Assembly: GCA_023258975.1 (NCBI GenBank)
Contig: JAHFRD010000026.1
Location: forward strand, 1 to 33,721
Direction: 5' to 3'
Source of the DNA: Hydrogenophilales bacterium
GTDB taxonomy: Bacteria > Pseudomonadota > Gammaproteobacteria > Burkholderiales > Thiobacillaceae
Length of the DNA stretch: 33,721 bases
Under the pieces are notes generated by a model. It did no database searches. It worked only from the letters and a program-made list of their open reading frames with translations, and was not told the origin of the DNA. The translations under genes and the position numbers were made by a program. Positions 3,390 through 18,678 of this stretch are shown here, piece by piece. The first letter of the stretch is position 1, and each line of letters begins with the position of its first letter.

Positions 3390-3710
3390 AGCCGCCAATT
3401 CACGGACAGCTTCCCCCCTGGTGGTGCAAAGTTATCGGCAGAGGGGGGAAAAACCGAAGAGCGGGTAAACGGTGCTCAAAAGCAAATCTAGGGGTTTTGA
3501 CTTGGGCCGCTGGAGGTTTGACATAATCTTCATTGAGATCTTCAATGAGCCGTACTATGCTAAATCGCCTTGCGCGATTTGACGTGTGGTGATGCTTTCT
3601 TGATTTGTGGCTGTCTTGACAGGCCAATCCCACACATACTCAGTGTATTTACAACGACTCTTGATTGTCAACATCTGATCTTCATGGGTTGTCGATTGAT
3701 TTTAAAGGGT
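3390..3710. other. Intergenic region with a palindrome and promoter-like hexamers
   Basis: No convincing gene is present in these roughly 320 bases. A perfect CATTGA-N5-TCAATG palindrome lies at 3531-3547, a short aaatcgc/gcgattt stem near 3559-3577, and ttgaca-like hexamers at 3497, 3518 and around 3614. None has a well placed -10 partner, and no plus-strand gene follows. The stretch is noticeably more AT-rich than its flanks. It may be an orphan regulatory segment left by rearrangement. Confidence 0.4.
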
Positions 3711-5600
3711 TTATGACTTTTCCCCATCCACCGTACTGGTGAAAGGCTCGATATGGGGGTTTGGCGAAGGGAGTGGGTTCACAAATCGTTCTGGATGGGG
3801 AATCACAACGACCGATAACAGGCTGCCCTCAGAGCCGCGACGTTTGACGCGGTAGCGCAGGATGTTCATCTTCTTCGGCCCGGCCCGGTGCCATTGCGCC
3901 TTAAAAAAATCCCTTTGCAGCGCGGCGCCAATTTTGTCCTCGGGCTCACCAGTGGTGCTCTCGCCGATGTCGTCGAGGTAGTGCCGGAAGGTGCGTGGCG
4001 ACACCAGTAGCATCAGCGTCCTGCCGTTTTCCTCCACGAAATGGATCAATGCGCCTGGGACGTTGTAGGCCAGCGCTCCATTGCCGATACCTTCCTGTAT
4101 CCAGGCCATGAGGCGCTTGGCGTTCTCAGGCGTGTTTTCCGGGCCTGTGTTGAGCCTTGTCGGGGGAGCCGTTGTATGAGGCACCACCGGCGCTAGAACC
4201 TGGGGCAAGGGAACCTTGGGTTGCTTGACAGCCTGCACTGATCTGCCTGACTGCGGAGCCTTGGTTCTCTCCGTTTTCATGGGTTGGCTTGCTAACGTCT
4301 GTTCCACGGCCACATCCATCAGGGCTTCGTCATCATCAAGAAATACGTCATCAGGATTGCCAGGTTGTGGCTGCACCAGCGTCACGGCGGCTTGCATATC
4401 CTTCTGGGGCAGGGATCCGGTTGATTCGTTGCCATTGGCGTCCCCATCAATCAAAGCCCTCAGCCCTGCAAGCGCATCGACCTTTGGTGAATCGCTGTCC
4501 TGTGGTGGCTCCGTCGACACGGCTTCATGCGCGGCTGGCGGTACCGGCTGTATCGCCGACACGGTTTCATCGGTTTGCGTTGTAGCGACACCAGCCGCTG
4601 TTTTTTTCTCCAGCACCTTGATGGTGCCGGGGAAGTCTCCTGGAATCCTGGTTGGCTGGTAGAGCTGCTCCAGAGGAAACCGCAGCATGGTCAGCGAATG
4701 CGACCAACCCGTATCTCCGACCTGAACCGTCCAGACGGCGCCGCCGGTGGTGGGGTTCGGTGTGAGCGCACCGTACTCCTGGAACGTGTCGAAAATTCGG
4801 TCATTCTTGAAACTGGAAGGCAGTCCAGGCGCGCCGTCAGGGGCCGCGAGTTCGTGTTTTTCCAGGTATTCGCGCAGTTCGTCCGCTGTCCGCTTGCAGA
4901 CCAGCCAGATACTTCCGTCCGCGACGAAGCCGGCGGCGCCGTCGCGATTGAGTGGCAGCAGGCCTTCGGCCAACATGCCACGCAAGCCTGCCATCAGGCG
5001 TTCAACCAGCGGCACATCGCGTGCGCTGGTGAATCGCACACGAGGTCCGGCCATCAGATTCGCGGCCACGGATTGCCTGTCCGCCTGGGTCACCAGGTCT
5101 GTCAGCGCCCCGGTCTTGGCTTCTCCCGACAGGTAGGTAATCAAGTCCGGCATGGGGCCGCCCGGCGCAGATAGCCAGGCGATGGCCTCGGCGGGCACAA
5201 GTTTCTGCAACAGCAACACGGCCAGGCGCTGATGCAGTGTGTAGCTGCGCCCCCGCACGAACTCCACCCTGTACCAGTCCTTCCGCTGATCAACGAGGCT
5301 ACCCGCCAGAGGATGCCAAGGCCCGTCGCCGCGATCACCGCCGCACGTCACGGCGAGATCGGCCAGCGGCTTGGCTTTCGCCAGGATCGCGGCCTGGTTC
5401 GCGCCGCATCCAGCGACAAGAATCCTCAAGCCTGCCGGCACAGCGGCGCGTGGCCATATCTTCCAGCGCAACCGGGACGGGTCCGAATAATCACGGCCCC
5501 CCGCCGCCACATAGGCATCCAGGTCCGCTATGGGTTCCGGGTAGACCCACTGCTCGTATTGGGCAATCAGCGGATCGCCGAGCATGGGAGAGCTAAGCAT
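3711..5600 (-). CDS. traI: Methyltransferase N-terminus fused to the C-terminal part of a MobH/TraI relaxase
   Basis: One open frame of 629 residues from the ATG at 5600, which has a gaggaggt ribosome binding site. Residues 1-76 are the start of a class I SAM methyltransferase: YEQWVYPEP, DPSRLRWKIWPR, and the SAM-binding ILVAGCGANQAA. From about residue 77 the sequence is MobH-type TraI: PLADLAVTCGG, WHPLAGS, WYRVEFVRGRSYTLHQR, ADRQSVAANL, GPRVRFTSARDVPLVERLM, LPLNRDGAAGFV. A Pro/Thr-rich linker follows. Near the C-terminus is a TraI_2_C-like domain: GIGNGALAYNVPGALIHFVE, LLVSPRTFRHY. The relaxase HD core is absent here and lies at 13115-13594 on the other strand. The fusion is in frame, but neither activity should survive alone. 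The frame is also open upstream to 6074, but that part only shadows virB4. Confidence 0.88.
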   Translation of the reverse strand: MLSSPMLGDPLIAQYEQWVYPEPIADLDAYVAAGGRDYSDPSRLRWKIWPRAAVPAGLRILVAGCGANQAAILAKAKPLADLAVTCGGDRGDGPWHPLAGSLVDQRKDWYRVEFVRGRSYTLHQRLAVLLLQKLVPAEAIAWLSAPGGPMPDLITYLSGEAKTGALTDLVTQADRQSVAANLMAGPRVRFTSARDVPLVERLMAGLRGMLAEGLLPLNRDGAAGFVADGSIWLVCKRTADELREYLEKHELAAPDGAPGLPSSFKNDRIFDTFQEYGALTPNPTTGGAVWTVQVGDTGWSHSLTMLRFPLEQLYQPTRIPGDFPGTIKVLEKKTAAGVATTQTDETVSAIQPVPPAAHEAVSTEPPQDSDSPKVDALAGLRALIDGDANGNESTGSLPQKDMQAAVTLVQPQPGNPDDVFLDDDEALMDVAVEQTLASQPMKTERTKAPQSGRSVQAVKQPKVPLPQVLAPVVPHTTAPPTRLNTGPENTPENAKRLMAWIQEGIGNGALAYNVPGALIHFVEENGRTLMLLVSPRTFRHYLDDIGESTTGEPEDKIGAALQRDFFKAQWHRAGPKKMNILRYRVKRRGSEGSLLSVVVIPHPERFVNPLPSPNPHIEPFTSTVDGEKS

Positions 5601-7372
5601 GCTGCTTGACCTCCTCGATATAGCGTTCCCGCCACCAACATCTCTACCCACCGCGCAATCCAGCTCCACTCGCCGGGGTCGGACAGCCAGGCCAGCGGAT
5701 TGACCTTGACGCCACTTGCGGCGCCGCTTGACGGCACCACGTGACGCCCGCCCATGAGCAGGGTCTGTATCTTGCAGGAGAAATCCTTGTCGAAAATAAC
5801 CACCCGGCAGGGGTGGTACTTGCGCCACTGCGCCATCAGAAACGTCACGATGATCGTCTTGCCGGAGCCAGTTGGGCCGAGGATCAAGCCATGTGCCACA
5901 TCCCCCACGAACGGATCGAAATAGAACGGCATCCCATGCGCCGTCGGCATTACCGCCAGTGCCGGACAATGCCTGCCTGTTTGAGTCGACAGATGGCGGG
6001 AGACCGGATCCCCCTGACGTATGGAAAAAAGCGGCGCCACGCAGGCCTGGGCGAGCGAGGACAGCACTCGCCACCGACGGACCTGGGCATGCTGTCCAGG
6101 CATCGTTCCGGCGTAAGCCGATACCAGATGCAAGCGTTCTCGCACCAGGACCACGCCCTGGTAGCGCAACGCGGCCGTGACGATGCCGAGACTTTCTTCC
6201 AACTCCTCCGGCGACTCAGCAAACACCAGTATCGTCGTGTTGTGCCAGCCGAACTGGCGTTTGCCGGAATTCAAGGCGGTTAAAGCCTCATCGGCCTGCT
6301 TCTCGTCATCGGAGCGCGCCTTGTTGGTCGGCACGCCACTGGTATCACCGCCTTTGGCGGCGCTGTTGAGCACCGACTTGAAAGTCCACTTGGCCATGCC
6401 GTTGTACCAGCGCACCCGCTCGATGTGCTCATGCGCCGCCGCGCGCGGCATCAACCGGAAGATGTGGCTGACCGTCAACTCCACGGGCAGCCGCGCCAAT
6501 GTATCGAGAAACCCTGGATGCAACTCCGGACGCTCCGCGCCCTCACGCCACGCAGTGATCGTGATGGCCGCAACGAACTGCCGGCGATCTCCCTCGAATG
6601 ACAGGCAGTCATCGAAAACGCCTAGCGCGGCATCGGGTAAACCGGTGTCGAGAAACCACTCCGGAAAGCCCTCCGACAAGCCGGGAGGCATGACATGCTC
6701 CTGCCGGTCATGGACCGGTGAGGCCTGCCCATGCAGAAAGGACAGCAATGACGCACCAGAGAGCCGTGTCAGAACCAGATCGCGCAGCGGTTCCGTGAAA
6801 TCCGTGAGCAAGGACTCAAAACGTTCCACCTGGGTGTCCAGCTCACCCGCCGAGTAGGCGAATGCCACAGATGGATCGAACGTGAGCCGCAACGCCCCCC
6901 AAAGCGCAGCCCAGAAGCCCCGCCCCTCCTGCATGCCATTGCGAACCCGATCCCCCAGCCTCGCACTGGCCCGCTCCGGCATCAGGCACGGGCTCAGGAA
7001 ATGGGTATTGCGGAACTGGCGCCCTTCGACGAACGCGCGCCTGCGGTTGGCGTCGATGCGCGCGGAAATCGGATCCGGGAATGAAGCGTCCGGGTAATCA
7101 AGGATGCGACGCCGGCGTAGCGTCCACCAGAGATGAACCGGACGATCATCCCAGCCGCGCAACGCAGAACCGACCCGGCGAACCAGATCATTGAGCGCCG
7201 AAGGCGCCATACCCTCTTCATCCATCCCGGAGAAGGCATAGCTGGCCAGCAAGGTGGAATCCTTGTTCACCACCACCCCCTCGCCGGCCATGAACAACCA
7301 GGGTGCGAGCTCCGCCAATGCGCGGATCTCGCCATTTCCAGGAGTGGGCACCTGGTGCGTCACCTGGCTCAT
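5567..7372 (-). pseudogene. virB4: VirB4 T4SS ATPase, C-terminally truncated
   Basis: VirB4/TrbE energises pilus biogenesis and substrate transfer at the inner membrane. About 580 recognisable residues are present: the N-terminal VirB4 domain (LAELAPWLFMAGEGVVVNKD), a long central region, and a Walker A (LILGPTGSGKTIIVTFLMAQ) near residue 500. VVIFDKDFSC and VKVNPLAWL follow. After WSWIARWVEMLVAG, near 5630, the homology stops. The frame runs out through the start of the methyltransferase gene to a stop at 5567. The Walker B and C-terminal ATPase part, roughly 200 residues in typical VirB4, is missing, so the protein should be inactive. The start at 7372 overlaps the virB3 stop (ATGA). Confidence 0.9.
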
Positions 7373-7686
7373 GCGAGCGTCCCTCGACCCATCCCGGCGG
7401 GCCGTGCCCCTTGAAGCATCACCACCGTCGACTGCGGTTCATAACGCGCCGACTGTCTGGCATAGGCCAGATAGATGCCCAGCATGTCCGCATCCCGCCG
7501 ATTGGCGTACCAGAGCACCAGATGTATGACCACAGCGGGAACGATCCACCAGAACTGCTTCAGCGTGCCGGCCATGAGGATCAGCACCATCGCATTGCCG
7601 GCGAACTGCTGCCACTCCACGCCGAACACCACCATAGGTGCCGACAGGCAGGGGTAGACGGGTTCTTTGTCGAGTCCGGCGCGCAT
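7369..7686 (-). CDS. virB3: VirB3-like inner-membrane T4SS protein
   Basis: 105 residues from the ATG at 7686, which overlaps the virB2 stop (TGATG). The sequence begins MRAGLDKEPVYPCLSAPMVV, the conserved N-terminal 'xxP-Y-ALxRP' type region of VirB3/TrbD. Two hydrophobic segments follow (NAMVLILMAG and WWIVPAVVIHLVLWYA), then a soluble tail. VirB3 associates with VirB4 in the inner membrane, and virB4 overlaps directly downstream. A longer open frame to 7839 exists but overlaps virB2 entirely, so the shorter start is right. Confidence 0.82.
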   Translation of the reverse strand: MRAGLDKEPVYPCLSAPMVVFGVEWQQFAGNAMVLILMAGTLKQFWWIVPAVVIHLVLWYANRRDADMLGIYLAYARQSARYEPQSTVVMLQGARPAGMGRGTLA

Positions 7687-8048
7687 CAGAGATTCCGGAT
7701 GATTTGCTGCATGGCGCCGGCCCCGCCGGCGCAGTTGAACAGTGCCTGCGCTTTTGCACCTGCCATGTAACCGCCGATTGAAGCGATGCTGGCCATAAAT
7801 CCGGCCGCCAGAACGCCCTTCAAGGCACTCTGAACCCACTCGCCCCCCATTTTCATGTACAGCGCCCAGGACGCCCCGGCCACGGCCGCCAGAGAAATCA
7901 CAGCGGGAAGAATCGACTCGGTGATACTGACCCCAACGCAGATGCCGTCTTTTACGGGGCCGGCCAGGGCCGGATCCGCGATTAGCATGGACACGCAGGC
8001 CAGGAAAAATAGATTCAAGAATTTGCCAGGCAACGCAGAGAGGTTCAT
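7686..8048 (-). CDS. virB2: VirB2/TrbC-like T4SS pilin
   Basis: 120 residues with a signal peptide (FLNLFFLACVSMLIADPALA, cleavage likely after ALA). Two hydrophobic segments of the mature pilin follow (ITESILPAVISLAAVAGASW and VLAAGFMASIASIGGYMAG). Charged residues MKMGGEWVQSALK lie between them, the standard VirB2/TrbC layout. It forms the conjugative pilus shaft. It overlaps virB11 upstream by four bases and virB3 downstream by one. Confidence 0.82.
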   Translation of the reverse strand: MNLSALPGKFLNLFFLACVSMLIADPALAGPVKDGICVGVSITESILPAVISLAAVAGASWALYMKMGGEWVQSALKGVLAAGFMASIASIGGYMAGAKAQALFNCAGGAGAMQQIIRNL

Positions 8049-9073
8049 GTAGTCATCCTTTTTTTGAAGATGGAGCGTGTGACATAGGCGCCGTCTTCCA
8101 CCCCCAGCACCTCGATGATTTCGTCCGGGCCACGCATGCCGCCCACTCGGGCGGCCTGAACGACAAAGCGGAAGACGGCGGCGATTTGCGCGCGTAACGC
8201 CGGCAGCGGCCAGCCGGCCGCCTCCGGCGCCATGCGCACCATGTTTTCAAGTCGGGCTAGGGCCATGAGCGCGCTGTTGGCGTGCAGGGAACACGCGCCG
8301 CCGGAGTGGCCGGTATTAAGGGCGTCAAGAAGGTCGAACGCCTCAAAGCCACGCACCTCGCCGACCAGGATGCGATCCGGGCGGAAGCGCAACGCCAGTC
8401 GAATCAAATCGCGCGTGGAGACCCCCTTATCCAGGTTGGACTCGAAACTCACATAATTGGGCGCCTGCACCATCAACTCGGCGGTGTCCTCAATCGTGAG
8501 AATCCGGTCGCCATCCGGCATGGCCGCGACCAGCGCATTCAGAAACATGGTTTTGCCACTCGAAGTCCCACCGGCGACCAACACGTTCTGGCGCGACTCC
8601 ACCGACCAGGCCAGGAACTGCATCAGGGCTTCCCCACCCCGCGCCGTCTCGGCATCACTCGGCCGACTCACCGGCACATGTCCAGCAGCCGGCCATTCCA
8701 GAGAGAAAGCGCCCTGGGCCAGATAATCAGACAGTTCTAGCTGTCGCCGCGCGTGCTTGCGGATGGACAGGCAAGCCCCCTTCACCGCGACAGGCTGCAA
8801 AGCCGCCGCGATGCGAAGGCCGGGCATTCGTAGATCGAGGATCAATGCCTCGTCCTTATGGCACGACGCCGCCAGAGACTTGATGGCGGCCCGTACCACT
8901 GTCTCGGAGAGGGTGATGTCGGTCTTGGAGACGACTCCCAGGCGTTCCACCCAGATGTCGCTCGCATGGTTGACCATGATTTCCTGCACCGTCTGGTCCT
9001 CCATGAGCGGCACCAGAGGCGCCAAGTGGGCGCGCGCGACACGGATGGCCTGTTCCTCAAGCGCGCGGCTCAT
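8045..9073 (-). CDS. virB11: VirB11/TrbB T4SS traffic ATPase
   Basis: 342 residues from the ATG at 9073 (MSRALEEQAIRVARAHLAPL), overlapping the virB1 stop. It has an N-terminal VQEIMVNHASDIWVER domain and a Walker A-like VAGGTSSGKTMFLNAL. An ILTIEDTAEL Asp box, a Walker B DRILVGEVRG and a HSGGACSLHA His box follow. VirB11 ATPases are cytoplasmic hexamers that switch the T4SS between pilus assembly and DNA transfer. All ATPase motifs are intact. The open frame runs upstream to 9481, but that part shadows virB1. Confidence 0.95.
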   Translation of the reverse strand: MSRALEEQAIRVARAHLAPLVPLMEDQTVQEIMVNHASDIWVERLGVVSKTDITLSETVVRAAIKSLAASCHKDEALILDLRMPGLRIAAALQPVAVKGACLSIRKHARRQLELSDYLAQGAFSLEWPAAGHVPVSRPSDAETARGGEALMQFLAWSVESRQNVLVAGGTSSGKTMFLNALVAAMPDGDRILTIEDTAELMVQAPNYVSFESNLDKGVSTRDLIRLALRFRPDRILVGEVRGFEAFDLLDALNTGHSGGACSLHANSALMALARLENMVRMAPEAAGWPLPALRAQIAAVFRFVVQAARVGGMRGPDEIIEVLGVEDGAYVTRSIFKKRMTT

Positions 9074-9543
9074 CCCCGCTCCCCCACCGAATCGCGAATC
9101 CTCTTGTACGCGGCGGCCACCTTGTTCGCATACCAGGCACGCCGCCGTTGGCAATCCGGCCCCTTGAGTGACGTACACGCCGCGTTGTAGGCGCCCACCG
9201 CCTCCCAGGTAGCGCCATGGCGAGCAAACAAGTCCGCGAGAATCCAGGCACCGACATGGACGTTGACGCAAGGCTGCATCAATCGCTTGGCGTCGATCCC
9301 GTACTTGTCCAGTCTCGACAGCCAGCGGGAATTGATCTGCATCAGCCCCAGGTCCACGGACTGAGTGCGTTCCACATGACCACGGTTGACGGCGGCCGGA
9401 TTGACCGACGACTCGACATCGGCGATGGCGTACAGAAGCCACGGATGAATGTTGTAGCGTTGACCGGCCGCCACAAAGCAATCCCCGGCCAATGCCGGCA
9501 CGGCAAACAGGAACGCCAGAAAAATAGGGATGAATCTCATCAT
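9070..9543 (-). CDS. virB1: VirB1-like lytic transglycosylase
   Basis: About 157 residues with a signal peptide (MMRFIPIFLAFLFAVPALA|GDC). The SLT/lysozyme-like fold follows: YNIHPWLLYAIADVESSVNP supplies the catalytic Glu in 'ADVES', then DLGLMQINSRWL, and VGAYNAACTSLK near the end. It opens peptidoglycan for the transfer apparatus. It is the first gene of the virB1-B11-B2-B3-B4 operon. The start is ATG 9543 or 9540. A hairpin plus T-run sits 14 bases upstream of the start (9557-9601), so expression may be set by attenuation. Confidence 0.9.
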   Translation of the reverse strand: MMRFIPIFLAFLFAVPALAGDCFVAAGQRYNIHPWLLYAIADVESSVNPAAVNRGHVERTQSVDLGLMQINSRWLSRLDKYGIDAKRLMQPCVNVHVGAWILADLFARHGATWEAVGAYNAACTSLKGPDCQRRRAWYANKVAAAYKRIRDSVGERG

Positions 9544-9556
9544 TCGTTCACGCGAG

Positions 9557-9601
9557 AAAAAAGGGTAGCCGTCGCCTGGGAGGAGAGTCGCGACGGCTAC
9601 C
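9557..9601 (-). terminator. Intrinsic terminator in the virB1 leader (possible attenuator)
   Basis: Read on the minus strand, perfect 12-bp arms (9590-9601 with 9564-9575, ggtagccgtcgc) enclose a 14-base loop and are followed by c and six T (9557-9562). This is a textbook intrinsic terminator, yet it lies between the likely promoter region and the virB1 start at 9543. The RNA loop (gacucuccucccag) contains a CUCCUCC run complementary to a Shine-Dalgarno sequence. It would suit attenuation, or insulation from readthrough. Confidence 0.7.
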
Positions 9602-9670
9602 AAGCCTCAACAGCGATGCCTGGGATCAGGCAGAACGAACGGTATGTGGGAACGTGAGAGATTTCAGCCG

Positions 9671-9698
9671 TAAATAGGGTTTACGATGAAACCCTATT
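9671..9698. promoter_or_regulatory. Palindromic site upstream of the virB operon (copy 1)
   Basis: An aaatagggttt-N6-aaaccctatt dyad centred on acgatg. The 28 bases 9671-9698 are the exact reverse complement of 10861-10888. Relative to the minus-strand virB operon it has the same orientation as copy 2 has relative to the plus-strand tra operon, about 130 bases upstream of virB1. It is best read as a shared operator. A tyrosine-recombinase site is an alternative. Confidence 0.6.
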
Positions 9699-9884
9699 CT
9701 TTGTAGAAATAAATAAATCAAACTGCTACAGTGCGCGGTTTCGCGAAAACTCCGCAAACACACAAATAATAATAAAAACAAAGACATACACAAAAAACAC
9801 AAAACCCGACCAGAGCATCATACGAAAATAGTTTTCGTATGAAATTGGCAAAAGCAGCCGCAACAGAGCAACCCTTGCATGTGT
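9699..9884. other. AT-rich intergenic segment with A/C-rich tract and palindrome
   Basis: No gene is seen between the virB leader and fitA. From 9755 to 9807 the plus strand is almost only A and C (about four T and one G). A perfect catacgaaaa-tag-ttttcgtatg palindrome follows at 9819-9841, and a ttcgcgaa dyad lies at 9740-9747. Strand asymmetry next to dyads between the two transfer operons is the kind of structure found at oriT or replication origins. Function is inferred. Confidence 0.45.
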
Positions 9885-9909
9885 GCATTCAATTAATCAG
9901 AATGAATGC
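9885..9909. promoter_or_regulatory. Candidate fitAB operator
   Basis: Arms gcattca (9885-9891) and tgaatgc (9903-9909) form a dyad about 30 bases upstream of the antitoxin start. FitA/VapB ribbon-helix-helix antitoxins bind dyads in this position. The pair is unique in this intergenic region. Confidence 0.4.
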
Positions 9910-9937
9910 GTTGAATGTGTTTTGATGAGGTGACGCC

Positions 9938-10192
9938 GTGGCAATGCTGACAGTACGCAATCTGCCCGACGACGTGCATCGCGCGTTGAGGGCGCAGGCC
10001 GCTCTACATGGGCGAAGCACCGAGGCCGAGGTTCGTGAGATTCTGGCCATCGCGGTCAAGCCGGAGATGCGCGTCCACCTGGGCGAAGCACTCGCGGCAT
10101 TGGGCCGCAAGATCGGTCTGACAAACGAGGATTTCCAGGTCTGCGACCGGGTGAGAGACAAGACGCCAGCCGAACCGCTGAGGTTTGAATGA
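9938..10192 (+). CDS. FitA/VapB-type ribbon-helix-helix antitoxin
   Basis: 84 residues starting at GTG 9938, or ATG 9944, after a gaggtg ribosome binding site. The N-terminal MLTVRNLPDDVHRALRAQAA with HGRSTEAEVREIL is the classic FitA-type Arc/MetJ ribbon-helix-helix. The C-terminal part would wrap the toxin. It overlaps the PIN toxin gene by four bases (ATGA). It lies between the two matching 28-bp palindromes at 9671 and 10861, so the TA pair sits as a cassette in the regulatory hub between the transfer operons. Confidence 0.88.
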   Translation: MAMLTVRNLPDDVHRALRAQAALHGRSTEAEVREILAIAVKPEMRVHLGEALAALGRKIGLTNEDFQVCDRVRDKTPAEPLRFE

Positions 10193-10605
10193 TCGTCCTT
10201 GATACCAATGTCGTCTCCGAAGCGATGAAGCCCGAGCCGCACCCGTCCGTGCGGGCATGGCTGAACGATCAAGCCGCCGAAACGCTGTACCTGTCCAGCG
10301 TGACGCTGGCCGAACTGTTGTTTGGCATCGCCGCGCTCCCGGCCGGTAAGCGCAAGGACATGTTGGCACAAGCCCTTGACGGTCTGATGGGACTATTCAG
10401 GGAGCGAATACTGCCCTTCGATACCGATGCGGCTCGACGCTATGCCGAGTTGGCCGTGACAGCAAAAACAGAAGGTCGTGGATTCCCGACGCCTGACGGC
10501 TACATCGCCGCAATTGCGGCCTCGCGGGGGTTCATTGTGGCGTCACGCGACACCGCCCCTTTTGAGGCGGTCGGTGTAACCGTCATCAATCCCTGGAAAG
10601 ACTGA
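10189..10605 (+). CDS. FitB/VapC-type PIN-domain RNase toxin
   Basis: 138 residues with the PIN signature: MIVLDTNVVSE supplies the first Asp, SSVTLAELLFGI the conserved Glu, TPDGYIAAIA the next acidic residue, and VASRDTAPF the last Asp. PIN toxins are Mg-dependent endoribonucleases, often acting on tRNA. Length is standard and all acidic residues are present, so it looks functional. It is coupled to the antitoxin by an ATGA overlap. Confidence 0.9.
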   Translation: MIVLDTNVVSEAMKPEPHPSVRAWLNDQAAETLYLSSVTLAELLFGIAALPAGKRKDMLAQALDGLMGLFRERILPFDTDAARRYAELAVTAKTEGRGFPTPDGYIAAIAASRGFIVASRDTAPFEAVGVTVINPWKD

Positions 10606-10608
10606 GTG

Positions 10609-10752
10609 ATGTCTCGAAAAAACGGCGCAAAGGGGCGGCCGTGGGCGGCCGCTTCCAAGGGGAAGGGGCTTATCTTAAAGGGCACGCCCCCCGCTAATAA
10701 GACGCGGGGGGCGTTATCCAAATGGCTTAATGGGGAACGGGGCAGGCCCTAA
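10609..10752 (+). CDS. Possible small basic protein (47 aa), doubtful
   Basis: An ATG three bases after the fitB stop opens a 47-residue Lys/Arg/Gly-rich frame (MSRKNGAKGRPWAAASKGKG, ending NGERGRP). The 11-bp-arm GC hairpin at 10684-10714 lies inside it. There is no clear ribosome binding site and no family. It may be an accident of a GC-rich 3' untranslated region. Confidence 0.2.
   Translation: MSRKNGAKGRPWAAASKGKGLILKGTPPANKTRGALSKWLNGERGRP
10684..10714. terminator. Strong GC hairpin downstream of fitAB
   Basis: Perfect 11-bp arms (acgccccccgc at 10684-10694, reverse complement at 10704-10714) around a 9-base loop. It lies 80 bases after the fitB stop. No T-run follows, so it may act as an RNA 3'-end stabiliser or a weak terminator. 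The remainder of 10753-10850 holds no gene, only a small gccct/agggc stem near 10800. Confidence 0.5.
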
Positions 10753-10850
10753 TGGACAAGGGAAAACCACCTGAAGGGGTAAGGGCCGAAAACGAAAAAA
10801 GCCCTCAAAGGGCCGGTGACCGCGCGAGCATACCGTTTCTGGCGCAGGCC

Positions 10851-10896
10851 CGCCACAATAAATAGGGTTTCATCGTAAACCCTATTTATTGTGGCG
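10851..10896. promoter_or_regulatory. Long palindrome upstream of the tra operon (copy 2)
   Basis: Perfect 20-bp arms (10851-10870 and 10877-10896) flank a 6-base centre, catcgt. Its inner 28 bases (10861-10888) are the exact reverse complement of copy 1 at 9671-9698. It ends 54 bases before the GTG of the first tra-operon gene. The same site upstream of both transfer operons, in matching orientation, points to common regulation. Confidence 0.65.
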
Positions 10897-10949
10897 AAAG
10901 CTGTCTCGGGTGGGCAGTCTCCGGCGCATTGCGTCTCTGGAGCGAAACC

Positions 10950-11270
10950 GTGCATTTGTCACGACTCAACGGTCCCAATTCCGTACTCCCCATCATCGAC
11001 ACCTTTGTCGCACGGAAACATCCGCGCACGGTGTTCATCATCAATGGGGAAATCAAAACATACCCGTGCGACAGCCTGAGCGAAGCGCGCTGCCTGAAAA
11101 ACCAGGATGCGGTCATGGTCGGAACCTACGATGCCGGCGCCGACGCCAGGCGGCTCTACGAAGACATCCAGGCCTCACTGCCACAGAACTTCCTCGGCCA
11201 TCGACTGGTGCTGGGCACAACCCGTAGTGGCATGAACCCCAATGCCGAGTTACTGCATCAGGTGGCTTGA
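10950..11270 (+). CDS. Hypothetical protein at the head of the tra operon
   Basis: About 106 residues from the GTG at 10950, which has ggag eight bases upstream. A TTG at 10929 is an alternative but has no ribosome binding site. Soluble and mixed alpha/beta: it contains PRTVFIINGEIKTYPCD, DAVMVGTYDAGADARRL and a C-terminal NPNAELLHQVA. No family recognised. It overlaps the next gene (TGATG) and starts a chain of coupled genes leading to traD and traI, so a transfer-related or regulatory role is likely. Confidence 0.6.
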   Translation: MHLSRLNGPNSVLPIIDTFVARKHPRTVFIINGEIKTYPCDSLSEARCLKNQDAVMVGTYDAGADARRLYEDIQASLPQNFLGHRLVLGTTRSGMNPNAELLHQVA

Positions 11271-11722
11271 TGGATACCCCCGTCGAAGAAATCATGGATC
11301 GTATCTCCGAGCGCCTGGTGATGCTCAAGGCGTCGCGTTGGTTGCCGGTACTGCATCGGTGGCTGTCACAGTATCGTGGGCTGTACGACGTCATTTCAGG
11401 CGACTCCGAGTCGCCCGAGAGCCAGATAGCAGCCCTACTGGAGCAGATGAGTGTCCCCGTTGATGACGGTGTGCTGGCGGCACGTTTGGCTAGGCTCGAC
11501 TTCCTGACTTGGCGCGCCAGAATCGGAAATCAGCCCTGGCGTCCGCTCAAAGCGCCCTTCCTGTCCATCTGGAGCAAGAGAGTTTCAAATGAGGCGGCAA
11601 CTGAGGCGCCAGAGGTCGCGGTATCGGTATGGCAGTCGGACCGCGAGTATCCGGAGCCCGCTGAAACAGAAAAGTGGCTGCTGGCCTGCCTCAGGGAAAT
11701 CGCTCCATGCCCTACCCGCTAG
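11270..11722 (+). CDS. Hypothetical protein upstream of traD
   Basis: 150 residues from the ATG at 11270. It is predominantly helical and soluble (MDRISERLVMLKASRWLPVL, LTWRARIGNQPWRP), with a C-terminal EPAETEKWLLACLREI helix. It overlaps its upstream neighbour by one base and traD by 16 bases. I do not recognise a family. Its position between the operon head and the coupling protein is like that of small accessory genes in SXT/PFL-type conjugative elements. Confidence 0.6.
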   Translation: MDTPVEEIMDRISERLVMLKASRWLPVLHRWLSQYRGLYDVISGDSESPESQIAALLEQMSVPVDDGVLAARLARLDFLTWRARIGNQPWRPLKAPFLSIWSKRVSNEAATEAPEVAVSVWQSDREYPEPAETEKWLLACLREIAPCPTR

Positions 11723-12807
11723 AGAATCTGGTCAGACCTCCCTATCGCATCTATGCCGCGACCGCTAATTCCTGTCTGGCGGTCGGCACATTGGTGGTGT
11801 CCTACTGGCGCATCCCCTTCGGCCCGACGCCGGATCTGGCCTGGCCCCTGTCCACGGGCCTGCTGGCCTGGTCGGCCTATCGTGCCTGGCTGGATTGGCG
11901 CTTGGTACGTTACAAGCGCGGCCTGCGCAAGCTGCCGGCCTTCATGCTGGGGATGGATCAGATTCCGCACTCGACCAAGGCGTATTACGTCGGTCGCGGC
12001 TTCGAGTGGGATGCCCGGCATGTTCAGCGCCTGCATATGGCGCGGGAGCCGAAATACATCCATCTGTCCCGCCCGAGTCGCCTGTATGAAGCCGTTCGCA
12101 CCCTGGAATTGCGCGCGGAGAACGCGGGGTGTGACATTCGGCCCTACACCGAAAGCAAGTCCTGGTGGAATCCGGTCAAGCCCCTGCCCCAGGTGGGTGG
12201 GGATCCCCTGCTTCACGCCGTTGGGTTGTGGGAGGGAGAGAAAGATGTCTGGTTCGACCTCTATTCCCGCGTAGGCCATGTATTGGTGCTGGGCACGACG
12301 CGGGTCGGCAAAACCCGTTTCCTGGAGCTACAAGTCACGCAAGACATCCGCCGGGGCGACACAGTCATCGTGTTCGACCCCAAAGGGGACGCCGACTTGC
12401 TCAAGCGCATGTACGCCGAGGCGAAGAGGGCGGGGCGCCTGGACCAGTTCTATGTTTTTCACCTGGGATTTCCTGAACTTTCGGCGCGCTACAACCCCGT
12501 GAGCGATTTCAGCCGGGTGACCGAAATCGCCACGCGCATCACCAACCAACTGCCGCAGGAAGGCGAGGGCGCGAACTTTGCGCAGTTCGTCTGGGGCTTC
12601 GTCAACTCCATGTCCCGCGCCATGGTGAACGTCTTGGAATGCGGGGGGATTCTCGCGCCTGGCGTCTTGGGCGAACACTGGCCGAAGCCATCTACACCCT
12701 GGAATTTCGCGCCACGGGCCTGCACCGGGCCGTGGTCGATGGCCAACGTGTGCCCGTCGTCAGCAAGATCGCCACACGCTACGAGGAAGACATCCGTGTC
12801 GCCATGA
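11707..12807 (+). pseudogene. traD: TraD/VirD4-type coupling protein, truncated
   Basis: Begins MPYPLENLVRPPYRIYAATA at 11707. Two N-terminal membrane segments follow, then the SXT/PFL TraD hallmarks: IPHSTKAYYVGRGFEWDARH with VQRLHM, a Walker A (VLVLGTTRVGKTRFLELQV), IVFDPKGDADLLKRMYAEAK and FVWGFVNSMSRAMVN. Coupling proteins hand the relaxosome to the T4SS. After about residue 313 (near 12645) the similarity ends. The remaining codons to 12807 are out of frame with the next gene. Family members are about 600 residues or longer, so the Walker B half is missing. It appears joined by deletion to the following membrane gene. Confidence 0.88.
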
Positions 12808-13118
12808 CGGGCACCTGGCTCATCGGCTTACGCCTGGCCATTGCCGCCAGTGTTTTCTGGCCGGTCGGCATGCTCTGGCTGAGTGGCTGCCTGGATGGCC
12901 TTTCCGAGCGCGCCACGAGACGAGACGGCGCCGGTCGCGAATCTGCCAACATCTACCACCGGGCGAAATATTTCCACTTCTTCGGCTTGCCCATGGCGAT
13001 AGTCGCCTATTGTGTGCTGCCCTTCGCGATCAGCCCCGCCTGGATATTCGGGCCTTTGGCGGCGACCTCCGGCTGGTTCAGTTGGTTTCAGTTCAAGTAT
13101 TACAAGAAGTACCTATGA
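12639..13118 (+). pseudogene. TIGR03747/DUF4400-type conjugative membrane protein, N-terminally truncated
   Basis: From about 12660 this frame reads RTLAEAIYTLEFRATGLHRA. It continues to a membrane segment (IAASVFWPVGMLWLSGCLDG) and then ATRRDGAGRESANIYHRAK. A second membrane segment and the terminal FKYYKKYL complete it. The RRD--GAGRES--IYHRAK block and the KKYL end are hallmarks of the integrating-conjugative-element membrane protein family, normally encoded between traD and its partners. The N-terminal membrane segment is missing. It is replaced by traD sequence in another frame, consistent with one deletion through both genes. The ATG at 12639 is not its native start. It overlaps traI (ATGA). 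Confidence 0.75.
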
Positions 13119-13834
13119 GCCTGTGGCAAACCGTCTCGATTACCCTGGGGCTGGGCTGTCTGGCTGGGGGCGCCTGGGTATTGTGGCGGCGCTGGCCGGC
13201 GGATGCCAAGCTGTCTGGTGTCCCCGGCCAAGCCGCCCTGCCCCAGGGTGCGTTGCGCGTGCTACCCGCCGAATCCCTATTACAACCTCATGCGAGCCTG
13301 GTCACCGAGATCACTCGGGTTGTTGGCCTGCCGACGCCAGTCTGGAACAGCCTGGGGGATCCCCTGCTCACCCGTTTCGCCGAATTCTGCCAGCGGATGC
13401 CTGCGTCCGAGGCTCACCACCACGCCCATCCCGGTGGGCTGCTTGAACATACGCTGGACGTGGCGGTACGGGCATTGCGTCTGCGCCAGGGCTTGATGCT
13501 GCCGCCCGGCGCCGACGCGGAAGACATCTCGCGCCTCAAGTCACGCTGGAGTTATGCGGTGCTGGCCGCAGCCTTGCTCCATGACATCGGCAATCCGTTG
13601 GCCAGCGTTCTGGGAATCGACCTGTCTGGCCAGGCGATTGCTCACCATGAGCGTCTCAAAAGCGCACACAAACTGCACAACCTGGATCTGTTGCGAGTGG
13701 CTGTGGAGGATGTGGCCACCCTGGGCCGTGAGTTCGCGTCCGGCGTGGGCTGGAGGCTGTCTTCTTTGGTGAACATGGTCCAGATCGGGTCATCGCTTGG
13801 CTGGTGCGAGCGAATGCGGCCGACCAGGTGCTGA
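13115..13834 (+). CDS. traI: MobH/TraI relaxase N-terminus fused to the middle of a methyltransferase
   Basis: The start at 13115 overlaps the preceding stop. Residues 5-25 form a membrane segment. LRVLPAESLLQPHASLVTEI and a metal-binding MPASEAHHHAHPGGLLEHTL follow (three His at 101-103). The HD core LAAALLHDIGN is at 151-160. MobH relaxases nick oriT and remain bound to the DNA. At residue 160 the family has Lys (HDxGKP), but here Asn appears. From there the sequence is methyltransferase: SVLGIDLSGQAIAHHERLK, NLDLLRVAVEDVATLGREF. It ends out of frame after about 13736. The missing relaxase part is at 3711-5372 on the minus strand, and the missing methyltransferase start is at 5373-5600. Confidence 0.85.
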   Translation: MSLWQTVSITLGLGCLAGGAWVLWRRWPADAKLSGVPGQAALPQGALRVLPAESLLQPHASLVTEITRVVGLPTPVWNSLGDPLLTRFAEFCQRMPASEAHHHAHPGGLLEHTLDVAVRALRLRQGLMLPPGADAEDISRLKSRWSYAVLAAALLHDIGNPLASVLGIDLSGQAIAHHERLKSAHKLHNLDLLRVAVEDVATLGREFASGVGWRLSSLVNMVQIGSSLGWCERMRPTRC

Positions 13835-14076
13835 TTACCCGTGTCTTCAAGGGCCGTCTGGCCTTCGGGCCGGATGGCGCGCGCGGCGATTACATGCCCA
13901 TCGAGCGTGTGGCGTGGCGCCGTGAACATCGCTGGCGCCTGGAATTGGCATGGGGCCTGATCGTCCTGGTGCAGGACCAGCCTGTGCTGGTCTTCCTCGA
14001 CCTGATTCTGATCGGCATCGCGCTGGTCGCGCTTTTCAACACGGTAACCAACATGGTCATGGGGTGGTTTCTATGA
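13736..14076 (+). pseudogene. 3' part of an unrecognised transfer-region membrane protein
   Basis: From about 13745 a different frame reads LEAVFFGEHGPDRVIAWLVR. It continues with DQVLITRVFKGRLAFGPDGA and ends in a membrane segment (VFLDLILIGIALVALFNTV, MGWFL). It begins abruptly where the methyltransferase sequence breaks off, so its 5' end is missing. The closest ATG (13804) is only a convenience start. Its stop overlaps the next gene (ATGA). I do not recognise the family. Position before virB6 in a VirB-type operon suggests a T4SS accessory protein. Confidence 0.45.
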
Positions 14077-14480
14077 ATCAGCGATGCATGTTGGACTTTG
14101 CTGATTTCACGGTCGAAGACCGTGAGCGGTATCAACGCGCCATCGAAAGGGCGAGGGCGCTGGGCGCCGAGAAGCAGGCATTACAGGCACATTTCGAGAA
14201 GCACAGGAGTGATTCCCGGGTGGAGTCACAGATATGGCGGTTGACGCAGTTCGATCGCTATCTTGATCGCTTGCGCGATTCCTATTGCGCCGCTTCCGAC
14301 CTGTTCAGCCTGTCCATTGAGCCGGCTGATGAGTGGCCGTTGCTCGATTTCGATCGGTTGCCGAGGGGCGAGGAAGTGCAGAGCATGGTTGTGCTGGTCT
14401 CCATCAAACACGAACGCATCAAGGCCATGTCCATTGTGGCGCTGCTCAATGAGCTGCAGGGCTTGGTACGGGTGCATTGA
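14073..14480 (+). CDS. Hypothetical coiled-coil protein
   Basis: 135 residues starting MNQRCMLDFADFTVEDRERY at an ATG overlapping the previous stop. It is highly charged and helical (RYQRAIERARALGAEKQALQ, YLDRLRDSY) with no signal or membrane segment. The C-terminal half carries IKHERIKAMSIVALLNELQG. It sits 13 bases before the Rha-like gene and is probably co-transcribed. There is no known family. Confidence 0.6.
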   Translation: MNQRCMLDFADFTVEDRERYQRAIERARALGAEKQALQAHFEKHRSDSRVESQIWRLTQFDRYLDRLRDSYCAASDLFSLSIEPADEWPLLDFDRLPRGEEVQSMVVLVSIKHERIKAMSIVALLNELQGLVRVH

Positions 14481-14493
14481 GGAGGGATTGAAG

Positions 14494-15252
14494 ATGATTT
14501 CCGGGATGTATACGACTTCGCTGACGGTGGCTGAGTACTTCGGGAAGCGGCATGGCGGGGTGCTGCGTGACATCAGGTTTTTGGATTGCAGTCTGGCATT
14601 CAGGGAGTGCCACTTCGAGAAGCACCACGAGCCCAGTGAAGTCCAGAACGGCAAGCCGCAACCGTACTACCGCATCACCCGTGACGGTTTCACATTCCTG
14701 GCTATGGGTTTTATCGGCAAGGAAGCGGCCAGGTGGAAGGAGAGCTACATCACCGCCTTCAACCTCATGGAAACCCATTTAGTGGAGGCCACCCGCACGA
14801 TTCAGCGCCTCGAACGCTCAGGGCTGGGCAAGCCCCTCGACTTCTCCGACCCGGACAACCTACCGGCGCTGTCGTCGGACATGTTCGTCTGCTTGATGGA
14901 CGTCTTCGACAACAAGGCGGTGGTGTTGATGCTGCAATGGGCACTAGCACACGAAGCCCACAAGTCCCCGGTGGTCGCCACCTTCCGTGACATTGAGCGC
15001 GATTTGAACCACCTGGCGGGGAAGTCATCGCTCAACACCGCAAGCAAGCGCCTGGCGGTGGACGAGATATTGCGAGTCACGGAGGCGTTGAATGCCACCG
15101 GCCACAAGGCGACCAGCTTCGAACTGCTCCTTGACGCACTGGCGGATAAAGTCGCCGCACGCCTGGCTAAAGGCGGAGGGCTCACGCAGCTTTTTTCCGA
15201 TGAGGACTTGACCGCCTTGGCGGCCGAAGTTCAGTCCACGTTGTTGCATTGA
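14494..15252 (+). CDS. Rha-family (pRha) phage-type regulatory protein
   Basis: 252 residues from the ATG at 14494 with a strong gaggaggg ribosome binding site. The N-terminus TTSLTVAEYFGKRHGGVLRD with a Cys/His-containing CHFEKHH is followed by PQPYYRITRDGFTFLAMGFI, GKEAARWKESYITAFN and FNLMETHL. This is the Rha/pRha domain signature found in temperate phages and their mobile relatives. The C-terminal half is helical and of unknown role. Rha proteins are linked to phage regulation. Its place inside a T4SS operon is unusual and suggests cargo picked up from a phage. Confidence 0.85.
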   Translation: MISGMYTTSLTVAEYFGKRHGGVLRDIRFLDCSLAFRECHFEKHHEPSEVQNGKPQPYYRITRDGFTFLAMGFIGKEAARWKESYITAFNLMETHLVEATRTIQRLERSGLGKPLDFSDPDNLPALSSDMFVCLMDVFDNKAVVLMLQWALAHEAHKSPVVATFRDIERDLNHLAGKSSLNTASKRLAVDEILRVTEALNATGHKATSFELLLDALADKVAARLAKGGGLTQLFSDEDLTALAAEVQSTLLH

Positions 15253-15373
15253 TCTGGAGCCGAGTCGCCATGCTGCAAGCCCTGTTCTCCCGTTTGGCAA
15301 TGCACGGCGCGCCGTTTGCGGGCGCGCATTGGCCTAATCCGGATCATCTGCCTTTGCTGAGATCAGGCCCGCA

Positions 15374-15733
15374 TCACGCCGCTTTCATCATGAAATCCAC
15401 ATGCACGTCGTCATACGGGAAGACGATGCCGCCGTCGTCGGTACGGTCAACCAGGCCGGCTTTGATCAAGGCGTGCACGTCGTCATGCACGGCTTTGATG
15501 TCGCGGTCGAGCCGCCTCGCCAGTTCGCGCTGGCTCATGGGGCCGGCGCCGGCCATGGCGCCCAGGAGTTCCCAGCGTTTGCCGGTCAGCGTGCGCCAGA
15601 ACAGTTCATGCGTGGCGAAGCTGAAGCGGGGCGGGGAGGCTTCGCCGGTTTTCCAGGCGTGGACCACTTCTTTCAGGGTGTCTTCCAGACTGCAAACGCC
15701 GATGGTGACCACTCTCATGGCTTTGGTGTCCAC
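15374..15733 (-). CDS. HTH DNA-binding protein (HVO_A0114-like, orphan antitoxin type)
   Basis: 119 residues from 15733, or 114 from ATG 15718 (MRVVTIGVCSLEDTLKEVV). It contains FATHELFWRTLTGKRWELL. A winged helix-turn-helix follows (MSQRELARRLDRDIKAVHDD, VHALIKAGLVDRTDDG). It ends FPYDDVHVDFMMKAA. This matches putative transcriptional regulators usually encoded beside small toxin genes, but no partner is seen here. It lies opposite in direction to the T4SS genes, in the Rha-virB6 gap. Confidence 0.75.
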   Translation of the reverse strand: MDTKAMRVVTIGVCSLEDTLKEVVHAWKTGEASPPRFSFATHELFWRTLTGKRWELLGAMAGAGPMSQRELARRLDRDIKAVHDDVHALIKAGLVDRTDDGGIVFPYDDVHVDFMMKAA

Positions 15734-15769
15734 CGTGCTGGAGATGATGAATGCGCGAGAGGCTGCGGC

Positions 15770-16042
15770 TCAGTGCGGTATGCGTAACACGGCAATGATG
15801 ACGCCGCCAACGGCCGCGACGAACGCGCCGAGTTTGATGGTGAGCCGTAATTCCATCGCGAGAATTTCTTTGCGCAAGTCGTCGATGTCGCGCTTGGTGG
15901 CTACGTCCACTTCGCCGATAGCGGCGGCCACGGCGCGGGCTTCGGCTTCGGCCTGGGCGGCGGGGACGCCGGCGGCCTTGAGTGTGTCGGCGAATTTGAG
16001 TGTGTCGGCGAATTTGAGTGTGTCGAAAGTAATGGTGCTCAT
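15770..16042 (-). CDS. DUF1640-like coiled-coil membrane protein with tandem repeat
   Basis: 90 residues. An N-terminal ITFDTLKFADTLKFADTLKA contains the hexapeptide FADTLK in tandem, from an 18-bp DNA repeat. AAQAEAEARAVAAAIGEVDV, an ATKRDIDDLRKEILAMELRL coiled coil and a C-terminal membrane anchor (LGAFVAAVGGVIIAVL) follow. The layout resembles DUF1640/CCDC90-like proteins, small bacterial coiled-coil membrane proteins of unclear role. A second member lies at 22227-22442. Antisense to the T4SS operon, like the TA genes. Confidence 0.65.
   Translation of the reverse strand: MSTITFDTLKFADTLKFADTLKAAGVPAAQAEAEARAVAAAIGEVDVATKRDIDDLRKEILAMELRLTIKLGAFVAAVGGVIIAVLRIPH
15978..16025. repeat. 18-bp tandem repeat inside the coiled-coil gene
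   Basis: The 18-base unit ttgagtgtgtcggcgaat occurs at 15978-15995 and 15996-16013 with a 12-base partial third copy (16014-16025). It is in frame and adds FADTLK units. Copy number may vary by slippage. Confidence 0.9.
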
Positions 16043-16099
16043 GGCTCGAATGCTATCCGCCCTGGGCTTGGTTCGTCAAAAACAACAATGGGAGTTCGC

Positions 16100-17275
16100 A
16101 TGACGCGCGGCGTGACATGGTTCTACTGGGTTGGGGTGGTGGTTTTGTCCGCCCTGGCGCTTTGGGCGCCGCGGGCTGAGTCGATGCCGCCAGTGCTTGT
16201 CGCGGTTGTGGCGGGCGTGGCCGCCGTCGGTATGGCTGAGCCGGTGGCCGCTCAGGCGGTGCCGGCGGCGGCCAATCCTCCCGCCGGACAGCAGGCGGGC
16301 CGAGCGCTTTCGCGGGTGATGAACGGCATCCAGGCGGCCGGCGTGCGGATGGCGGGTTCGCTGTGGCAGGAGGGCTGGGAGCTTTTCTGGCTGGTGTGGA
16401 CCTTGATGCTGGGTTGGACCATCTACAAGAACTATCACCAGAGCGATGACCTGGTCGGTTCCCTGTCGATCTTTGGCGCGACCAGCATGTTCATTTACCT
16501 CGTCCTGATGCTCTACATGCCACCACGCGCGGGGGTGTCCACCTGGGGCGGCTCGCCGGTGTACATGGCGCAGATATTTACCGGTGGGTTCGAGGAGTAC
16601 GCCAGGAAGATTGCCGCGAACTCGGGGATCAATGTGCCCGGCATGGGGGCGAACTGGAACAGCTTGCAGGCGGTGGGGGCGAAAATGTTCTGGAACAGCA
16701 TCAGGGAGCTACTGGAATACGCAGCTGGGCTCCATCTTTTGCCGGAAAAACCGGACATGCTGGATTACCTGAAGGCGTTGGCTATCGGCCTGCCGCGCTT
16801 CCTGCACGTCGGCCTCGCGTTGATCGCGTCGATCTTCGTCGGGCTGGCGATGGTGGTCTACGTTTTCGTGGTGCTCATGGCCGATGTGCTGGTGGCCGTC
16901 GGCCTGACGCTGGGGCCGATCATGATCCCCTTCTACCTGATGCCGGTGCTGTCATTCCTGTTCGACGGCTGGTTGCGTTTCATGATCACGGCGGGTTTCT
17001 ACAAGCTGGTGGCCACGGTCATGCTGGCGCTGACCTACAACCTCGTGAAGGAATTGGAGGTGACGTCCCAATCTCTTGCGGGGGATGGCGTCTGGTGGGG
17101 CGATCTGATGAGCCTGTCACTGGCTGTGGTGATCGCCGTCATCACGCTCTTGTTGATGTGGCAGGTGCCGAGTATTGCCAGTGCGCTGACTCAGGGTAGT
17201 GCGGGTGGGGATATGAGTAAGGCGTCCAGGACACTCGAAAACGCAGCAAAGCTTCTGACGCGAGGGAAACCATGA
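16100..17275 (+). CDS. virB6: VirB6/TrbL-like polytopic T4SS protein
   Basis: 391 residues from ATG 16100 (ggag eight bases upstream); ATG 16088 is four codons longer. An N-terminal signal-like segment precedes MPPVLVAVVAGVAAVGMAEP. Several membrane helices follow (FWLVWTLMLGWTIY, SMFIYLVLMLY, FLHVGLALIASIFVGLAMVV, LMADVLVAVGLTLGPIMIPF, LAVVIAVITLLLMW). The GP-x-IPF stretch and the helix-rich C-terminal half are typical of VirB6/TrbL. It forms part of the inner-membrane DNA channel. The C-terminal tail is soluble. The TA block follows on the opposite strand, so the virB operon is interrupted here. Confidence 0.88.
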   Translation: MTRGVTWFYWVGVVVLSALALWAPRAESMPPVLVAVVAGVAAVGMAEPVAAQAVPAAANPPAGQQAGRALSRVMNGIQAAGVRMAGSLWQEGWELFWLVWTLMLGWTIYKNYHQSDDLVGSLSIFGATSMFIYLVLMLYMPPRAGVSTWGGSPVYMAQIFTGGFEEYARKIAANSGINVPGMGANWNSLQAVGAKMFWNSIRELLEYAAGLHLLPEKPDMLDYLKALAIGLPRFLHVGLALIASIFVGLAMVVYVFVVLMADVLVAVGLTLGPIMIPFYLMPVLSFLFDGWLRFMITAGFYKLVATVMLALTYNLVKELEVTSQSLAGDGVWWGDLMSLSLAVVIAVITLLLMWQVPSIASALTQGSAGGDMSKASRTLENAAKLLTRGKP

Positions 17276-17277
17276 AG

Positions 17278-17616
17278 TCAGGTATTTCCCTCGTCGCCAT
17301 AAAGCAACCAATAACCATCTTCGTCGTATTTGGCGGCCTCGTATTCGATTCGTTCGGTGCGATCCGCAGCCATAGCAGCCGCCATCGCAGCGGCAGACAT
17401 CGGCACCACCCGCTTGGTATAGCCATCCCGATGGCCGATGTACCAGGCAGACCAGACCGCCCAGACCAGACCGGCGCCGTAGCACAAGGCTTGCATCTCG
17501 CGGGTCGGCATGACCTCGGCGAGCCACGTAGCCGGCATCAGCCCGACCATGGCGAGCAGCCACCAATGCACGAACGCCTTGACGGCGCTGAATCGGGTGT
17601 CTCGGGTGATCATCAT
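17278..17616 (-). CDS. Hypothetical membrane protein
   Basis: 112 residues from MMITRDTRFSAVKAFVHWWL with two hydrophobic segments (WWLLAMVGLMPATWLAEV and ALCYGAGLVWAVWSAWYIG). A Met/Ala-rich stretch and an acidic tail (EYEAAKYDEDGYWLLYGDEG) follow. Its stop lies three bases beyond the virB6 stop, so the two are convergent. No family recognised. It may be expressed downstream of the brnTA genes. Confidence 0.6.
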   Translation of the reverse strand: MMITRDTRFSAVKAFVHWWLLAMVGLMPATWLAEVMPTREMQALCYGAGLVWAVWSAWYIGHRDGYTKRVVPMSAAAMAAAMAADRTERIEYEAAKYDEDGYWLLYGDEGNT

Positions 17617-17702
17617 GATGGGGTGCCTCTTGGTGGTTTTGTTGGTTTTGACGATTCGTACTGTAGACGCCTCTTTGCCTCGCGGGAAGTGATGCCGCTC
17701 AC
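17613..17702 (-). CDS. Possible 29-aa peptide, doubtful
   Basis: A GTG at 17702 opens a 29-residue basic frame (VSGITSREAKRRLQYESSKP, then TKPPRGTPS). Its stop overlaps the ATGATG of the membrane-protein gene, suggesting coupling. It could equally be the tail of a lost gene or chance. Confidence 0.2.
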   Translation of the reverse strand: MSGITSREAKRRLQYESSKPTKPPRGTPS

Positions 17703-17726
17703 TTCAGCGCGTCGAAAGTCGTCCGG

Positions 17727-18324: not shown

Positions 18325-18333
18325 GAGCTAACT

Positions 18334-18374: not shown

Positions 18375-18378
18375 ACAT

Positions 18379-18675: not shown

Positions 18676-18678
18676 GGT

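Follow-up and report, generated by a model that had tools for sequence, protein, structure and literature searches.

An 8.2-kb inversion, probably guided by microhomology, splits the relaxase gene of a decaying MobH element in a Hydrogenophilales bacterium

The window analysed here is the whole of contig C31 (33,721 nt) from a Hydrogenophilales genome of 3.63 Mb in 37 contigs. It carries transfer genes of a conjugative element, among them a MobH relaxase gene that lies in two pieces, each joined to a piece of a methyltransferase gene. A first-pass annotation had read a minus-strand frame ending at 3711 and a plus-strand frame starting with the ATG at 13115 as relaxase/methyltransferase hybrids, and both frames are present as described and open throughout. 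As reference we used a sister element on C23, a 43,313-base contig of the same genome, in which virB4, trbJ and the relaxase gene are all whole. Individual blastn rows between the window and C23 have identities of 67-92%; for the transfer part the length-weighted mean is 77%. No second near-identical copy of the window element was found in the assembly among the scored matches. Relatives G020 (contig C6) and G011 (contig C82) were compared for gene order. The features at the two joints are:

3711-5372, minus strand: C-terminal part of a MobH (TraI_2) relaxase, from KPLADL to the stop codon (tblastn to C23 relaxase residues 208-768, 70% identity; PF07514, PF07515)
5361-5373, minus strand: left breakpoint site CAAGCCGCTGGCC at the methyltransferase-to-relaxase joint (11/13 match to the right site)
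5367-13603: inverted segment of ~8.2 kb relative to C23 and G020 (blastn strand change against C23)
5370-5600, minus strand: N-terminal 77 codons of a class I S-adenosylmethionine methyltransferase, fused in frame to the relaxase C-terminal part (87% amino acid identity to C23)
13115-13591, plus strand: N-terminal part of the relaxase, ending in LLHDIG (tblastn to C23 relaxase residues 52-213, 62% identity; PF07514 positions 4-146)
13591-13603, plus strand: right breakpoint site CAATCCGTTGGCC at the relaxase-to-methyltransferase joint (11/13 match to the left site)
13592-13738, plus strand: the next 49 methyltransferase codons, fused in frame behind the relaxase N-terminal part (C23 residues 76-124, 88% amino acid identity)

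Read in frame to its stop at 3711, the minus-strand product passes from methyltransferase to relaxase, with ILVAGCGANQAAILAKA directly followed by KPLADLAVT. From its ATG at 13115 the plus-strand product passes from relaxase to methyltransferase, with LLHDIG followed by NPLASVLGIDLS. The plus frame covers positions 4-146 of the Pfam family TraI_2 (PF07514); the minus frame covers positions 115-319 and also contains TraI_2_C (PF07515). Since these TraI_2 parts are complementary, both frames hold pieces of one relaxase, in agreement with the first-pass annotation and with the uninterrupted relaxase of C23. The N-terminal piece carries the HHH and HD motifs, and the start codon of the methyltransferase is still in place ahead of the C-terminal piece. 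On C23 the relaxase is a single open frame of 768 codons (40734-43040), whose true start probably lies ~47 codons inside, and it passes the cut-offs of both NCBIfam models NF041494 (MobH) and TIGR03760 (ICE_TraI_Pfluor).

The arrangement of the window relative to C23 is that of one reciprocal inversion. The left flank (3566-5373) aligns by blastn to C23 43184-41354 and the right flank (13591-25690) to C23 25588-10109, both on the minus strand, and the segment between them (5367-13603) aligns to C23 25582-41366 on the plus strand. Flipping this segment alone restores collinearity with C23 in this region. Mapped onto C23, the pieces of each gene overlap slightly, by 13 bp for the relaxase (41354-41366) and by 7 bp for the methyltransferase (25582-25588); therefore no base was lost at either joint. 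This supports a single inversion of ~8.2 kb relative to the sister element, as had been proposed for the pair of fusions, and the lossless, reciprocal joints fit that proposal.

For the polarity of the change we compared further relatives. G020 shows the C23 order across the part corresponding to 3.7-14.4 kb of the window, the methyltransferase excepted; its relaxase halves lie next to each other (26819/26825 of the joined stretch), and trbJ comes directly after virB4. The halves are also adjacent in G011 (9983/9989). A search of 299 relatives at E <= 1e-20 found relaxase homologues in 43 genomes including our own, and in all 42 others a match row crosses the break (residues 207-213); five of the rows from this search (in G001, G010, G016, G022, G065) contain one in-frame TGA. 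Several genomes give two relaxase rows because the linker after residue 470 is variable. In addition, 80 named loci were kept from at least 521 relatives, reaching 10 kb to each side and including virB4 in 14 cases. One tblastn alignment spans relaxase residues 190-230 in 79 of them; for the last, L118, tblastn gave only the C-terminal part, and the translated stretch aligns unbroken over residues 114-448, so that the relaxase is uninterrupted across the break in 80/80. Rather than being separate genes in intact relatives, which the first-pass annotation had named as grounds for giving up the inversion, the relaxase pieces are thus one gene elsewhere, and the methyltransferase is a single gene on C23. 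Since the relaxase is unbroken in G020, G011 and the other relatives, the inverted order is derived, and among the relatives searched it occurs in the window only. The opposite polarity, with C31 original and C23 derived, was considered and rejected, as the relaxase crosses the break in G020, G011 and all other homologue-bearing relatives. A 27-mer across the junction had no exact match in IMG/VR. Megablast of window positions 3700-14200 against a plasmid collection returned 62 records, and the 20 matches listed covered only a vapBC stretch. The relaxase relatives on plasmids (3365 records) are all below 60% identity, as are those of the methyltransferase (24 records).

On C23 the methyltransferase gene encodes 414 amino acids (24571-25815), sits between virB4 (845 amino acids) and a trbJ-like gene, and its product matches Methyltransf_12 and related Pfam families. 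The window retains 77 + 49 = 126 of these 414 codons. Consequently, more than the inversion has cut the methyltransferase, which corrects the first-pass reading. The methyltransferase has a narrow distribution: in the same 299 relatives ten genomes match, of which our own is the only one from its genus and the other nine show 30-45% identity. No match was found by tblastn in the 80 kept named loci, of which only 14 reach virB4, and G020 has no methyltransferase between virB4 and trbJ.

Both breakpoints lie in short blocks of similar sequence. The imperfect inverted homology that had been noted at the shared Pro-Leu-Ala switch amounts to 13-bp blocks identical at 11 of 13 positions. Among 200,000 random inverted point pairs drawn from the window, a 13-mer match of at least 11 spanning the point occurred in a fraction of 2.0e-4. 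Compared with C23, the bases flanking CAA at each joint place the crossover within this trinucleotide. The relaxase site codes for GKPLAD and the methyltransferase site for ANPLAS, and the codons of both are in phase with each other. Four aligned relatives share the relaxase motif, and the methyltransferase motif is probably conserved as well. The high match of the two sites results from the similarity of the GKPxAD and ANPxAS codons, and since it is codon-aligned, both fusion products are in frame. The equivalent pair of sites on C23 is made of other bases and is still identical at 10 of 13 positions. Judged from these codons, the microhomology is a coding coincidence.

The inversion is by our reading one of at least four structural breaks in the window, and the other three are deletions that the first-pass annotation did not contain. 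The remaining transfer genes of this part and the deletion joints are:

5634-5636: deletion joint J1; 777 bp of C23 virB4 (25850-26626) have no counterpart
5639-7372, minus strand: virB4 (CagE/TrbE/VirB ATPase; PF03135), 3' part lost at J1 (Pfam, tblastn)
8045-9073, minus strand: T2SSE-family ATPase read as virB11, reading frame intact (PF00437; 89% amino acid identity to C23)
11674-12640, plus strand: N-terminal part of a coupling-protein (traD-type) gene (PF02534; blastn match ends at 12620)
12620-12691: deletion joint J2; 70 bp replace 1440 bp of C23 (39003-40442)
12639-13118, plus strand: DUF4400 gene, 5'-truncated by J2 (PF14348 positions 44-192 of 196)
13736-13744: deletion joint J3; 7 bp replace 1757 bp of C23 (23686-25442)

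The virB4 match of the window stops at residue 575 of 845, and G020 has residues 1-845. At J2 the coupling-protein gene has lost its end and the DUF4400 gene its start, and J3 removed the remainder of the methyltransferase gene together with the trbJ-like gene and the beginning of the gene that follows. Since G020 keeps virB4, trbJ and, at the same place as in the window, a 700-aa coupling-protein frame whole, the losses are deletions in the window. Pfam matches to TrbL/VirB6, VirB8, CagX (VirB9) and TrbI (VirB10) are also present. VirB4, a coupling protein and a relaxase together define a putative conjugative system in the passage of PMC3158045 that deals with this question, and the genes for all three are broken in the window. 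Most likely, therefore, this element would no longer transfer itself.

We consider it very probable that a single microhomology-guided illegitimate inversion took place in a decaying MobH element, as part of ordinary decay and without any switch function. The ancestral element would have carried a lineage-specific methyltransferase gene between virB4 and trbJ, as the sister does. One intramolecular illegitimate recombination at the 13-bp imperfect inverted match could then have flipped the 8.2 kb, with the crossover inside the CAA shared by the GKPLAD codons of the relaxase and the ANPLAS codons of the methyltransferase. Its products would be methyltransferase(1-77) joined to the relaxase C-terminal part, and the relaxase N-terminal part joined to a methyltransferase fragment. 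The three deletions would have taken parts of virB4, of traD/DUF4400 and of methyltransferase/trbJ, leaving a non-transmissible relic whose fusions are probably functionless. The comparisons demonstrate the anatomy, the polarity and reciprocity of the inversion, the microhomology and, relative to relatives, the deletions, and we infer the recombination pathway, the order of these events and the loss of transfer.

Several points weigh against this reading. Both junctions are known only from the assembled sequence, from which the pathway is deduced, and tyrosine and serine recombinases are present on other contigs of the genome. C23 is only ~77% identical in the transfer part, which limits what can be said of the ancestral sequence at the deletion joints. 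The divergence of the genes, by contrast, speaks for this reading. Measured against C23, the two relaxase pieces have synonymous divergences (Ks) of 1.58 and 1.27, virB4 has 1.06 and virB11 0.67; values above 1 are near saturation (proportion of synonymous differences, pS, 0.57-0.66) and hence rough. The ratio of nonsynonymous to synonymous divergence (Ka/Ks) is 0.12-0.16 for the same genes, and the similar Ks and low Ka/Ks of the relaxase halves indicate that for most of their past they evolved under constraint as parts of a single gene. For the two methyltransferase pieces Ks is 0.54 and 0.34, with Ka/Ks of 0.11 and 0.25; as the methyltransferase is less diverged than the transfer genes, its spread between these elements, or its arrival in them, was probably a later event. 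None of the four fragments contains a stop codon. Had they drifted without selection, one should have arisen with 95% probability by ~0.04 substitutions per site, so the inversion appears to be young, provided that selection does not act on the fragments now. If the fusion proteins are used, however, their open frames say nothing about age.

It seems improbable to us that the fusions are an artefact, put together by chimeric molecules such as fold-backs of multiple displacement amplification or by an error of assembly. The dependence of the junctions on the assembly speaks for an artefact, as does the description in PMC1855051 of chimeras from this amplification as mostly inverted sequences with intervening deletions, most of them primed at 2-21 nt of complementarity. 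In addition, the two ends of the contig carry a 119-nt inverted repeat that occurs on five more contigs. Two reciprocal lossless joints, however, differ from the inverted product with an intervening deletion that this paper describes. These contigs share an end of 119-120 bases, suggesting that the assembly word is far longer than the 13-bp match, which should then not have led the assembler astray. Moreover, the pieces are 77-88% identical to C23 at the joints, which argues against a mix-up with the sister contig.

Equally doubtful in our view is that a tyrosine or serine recombinase, of the shufflon type (Rci) or another, inverted the segment at specific sites and perhaps reversibly. For comparison, the 13-nt sfx block was taken from the part of PMC4176322 that gives it, and the arm and core anatomy of sfx from the corresponding part of PMC11852207. 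The crossover falls in CAA, which is also the last three bases of the 7-bp sfx core GTGCCAA, and the methyltransferase site of C23 matches the sfx block at 11 of 13 positions, as one of two such positions in C23. Rci matches of 40-48% identity exist in some relatives, and our genome has seven tyrosine recombinases and five Resolvase-family (PF00239) matches, one of the five being a small 192-aa recombinase on contig C13. By NCBIfam, XerD, XerC and an integron integrase of the seven score over their cut-offs, a XerC-like protein falls below its cut-off, and three receive no specific name. Both joint sites themselves, however, match the sfx block at only 9 of 13 positions, a level that 92 positions of the window reach or exceed. 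Scans with PF00589 and PF00239 gave no recombinase match on C31, which carries pilus-like genes, and no tyrosine or serine recombinase match was found on C23 either; the best match of the pEK204 Rci in the own genome has 29% identity. The methyltransferase partner is absent from G020, from the 80 named loci (14 of which reach virB4) and from the same-genus genomes except our own, and therefore no conserved site pair was found in related elements. We thus set aside the shufflon/Rci candidate, promising as its CAA crossover and the C23 site were: the joint sites fit the block poorly, and the genome yielded no Rci-like gene. A recombinase acting from another contig is unlikely, the site comparison having covered sfx.

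Still less likely is that the 8.2-kb inversion is a reversible on/off switch of conjugation operated by a recombinase at codon-matched sites in the relaxase and methyltransferase genes, with transfer off in the orientation of the window and on in the other. No literature on a relaxase-switching inversion was found among the titles and abstract openings listed, and we claim nothing wider from this. The weakest alternative holds that the fusions are functional and selected, as a purposely split relaxase or a methyltransferase-tagged relaxase C-terminal part, for which the open frames, the low Ka/Ks of the pieces and the methyltransferase start codon kept before the relaxase might be quoted, whereas the methyltransferase is down to 126/414 codons, virB4 and the coupling protein are broken too, and divergence that preceded the inversion accounts for the low Ka/Ks.

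Several neighbouring features deserve mention. Within the inverted segment, arms of 34 nt in inverted orientation (94% complementary; 9671-9704 and 10855-10888) flank a vapBC pair. Positions 9884-10610 there show 83-84% identity to vapBC on plasmids of the Pseudomonas syringae group and of Xanthomonas, among the matches listed. At this place C23 has ~6.2 kb and G020 ~1.15 kb of unaligned DNA, and given these differing sizes it looks like a cargo hotspot. A toxin-antitoxin row on the minus strand (17727-19302), mostly without aligned DNA in C23, comprises by Pfam BrnA (17727-18089), BrnT (18046-18324), a helix-turn-helix protein (18379-18675), a HicB-like protein (18679-19110) and HicA (19123-19302), and a PemK/MazF-type gene lies at 526-852. 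The stretches 14668-15718 and 32579-33589 are ~90-91% identical to C23, compared with ~76% for the rest of the element, which may reflect either sequence that the two elements exchanged recently or constraint that is stronger there. Secretin, T2SSE-type ATPase and prepilin-like genes at 22481-32881 resemble a conjugative type IV pilus operon. Positions 1238-1527 share 93% identity with 2882-3172 of C13 in the same genome, a contig that also holds a XerC-like and a small serine recombinase. The terminal inverted repeat is perfect over its 119 nt (2-120 and 33603-33721) and recurs at 97-100% identity on C14, C16, C17, C18 and C20, starting at base 1 or 2 in C17, C18 and C20; it probably marks the border of a mobile element present in several copies.

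Among known systems, the window resembles MobH elements of the PFGI-1 class in its VirB-type and coupling genes and in the C23 relaxase, which scores over the NF041494 and TIGR03760 cut-offs; it differs in its split relaxase and its truncated virB4 and coupling protein. No tyrosine integrase (PF00589) was found on C31 or C23. With R64-type shufflons it shares an inversion in a conjugative element with pilus-like genes and a crossover within CAA. Unlike these shufflons, it has a single inverted segment, the relaxase as target instead of pilV, no identical sfx cores and no Rci-like gene found in its genome. Proto-hitchers, in the passages of PMC11389934 that introduce them, arise by reductive evolution of conjugative elements. 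Similar to what is described there, the window holds a defective element beside a co-resident relative in which those genes are whole and which might in principle act as its helper. In contrast to them, its relaxase itself is broken, so that only a hitcher of the oriT type would be possible. The window fits this reductive model as far as those passages set it out, with C23 as a purely hypothetical helper.

The preferred reading, one microhomology-guided inversion in a decaying MobH element, describes a tidy but ordinary case of structural decay and changes no general view. It warns annotators that the two odd fusion proteins would be broken genes and not new multidomain enzymes. For the biology of such elements, it offers a clean example of how a conjugative element may lose its autonomy, with at least five transfer genes broken or removed by one inversion and three deletions.

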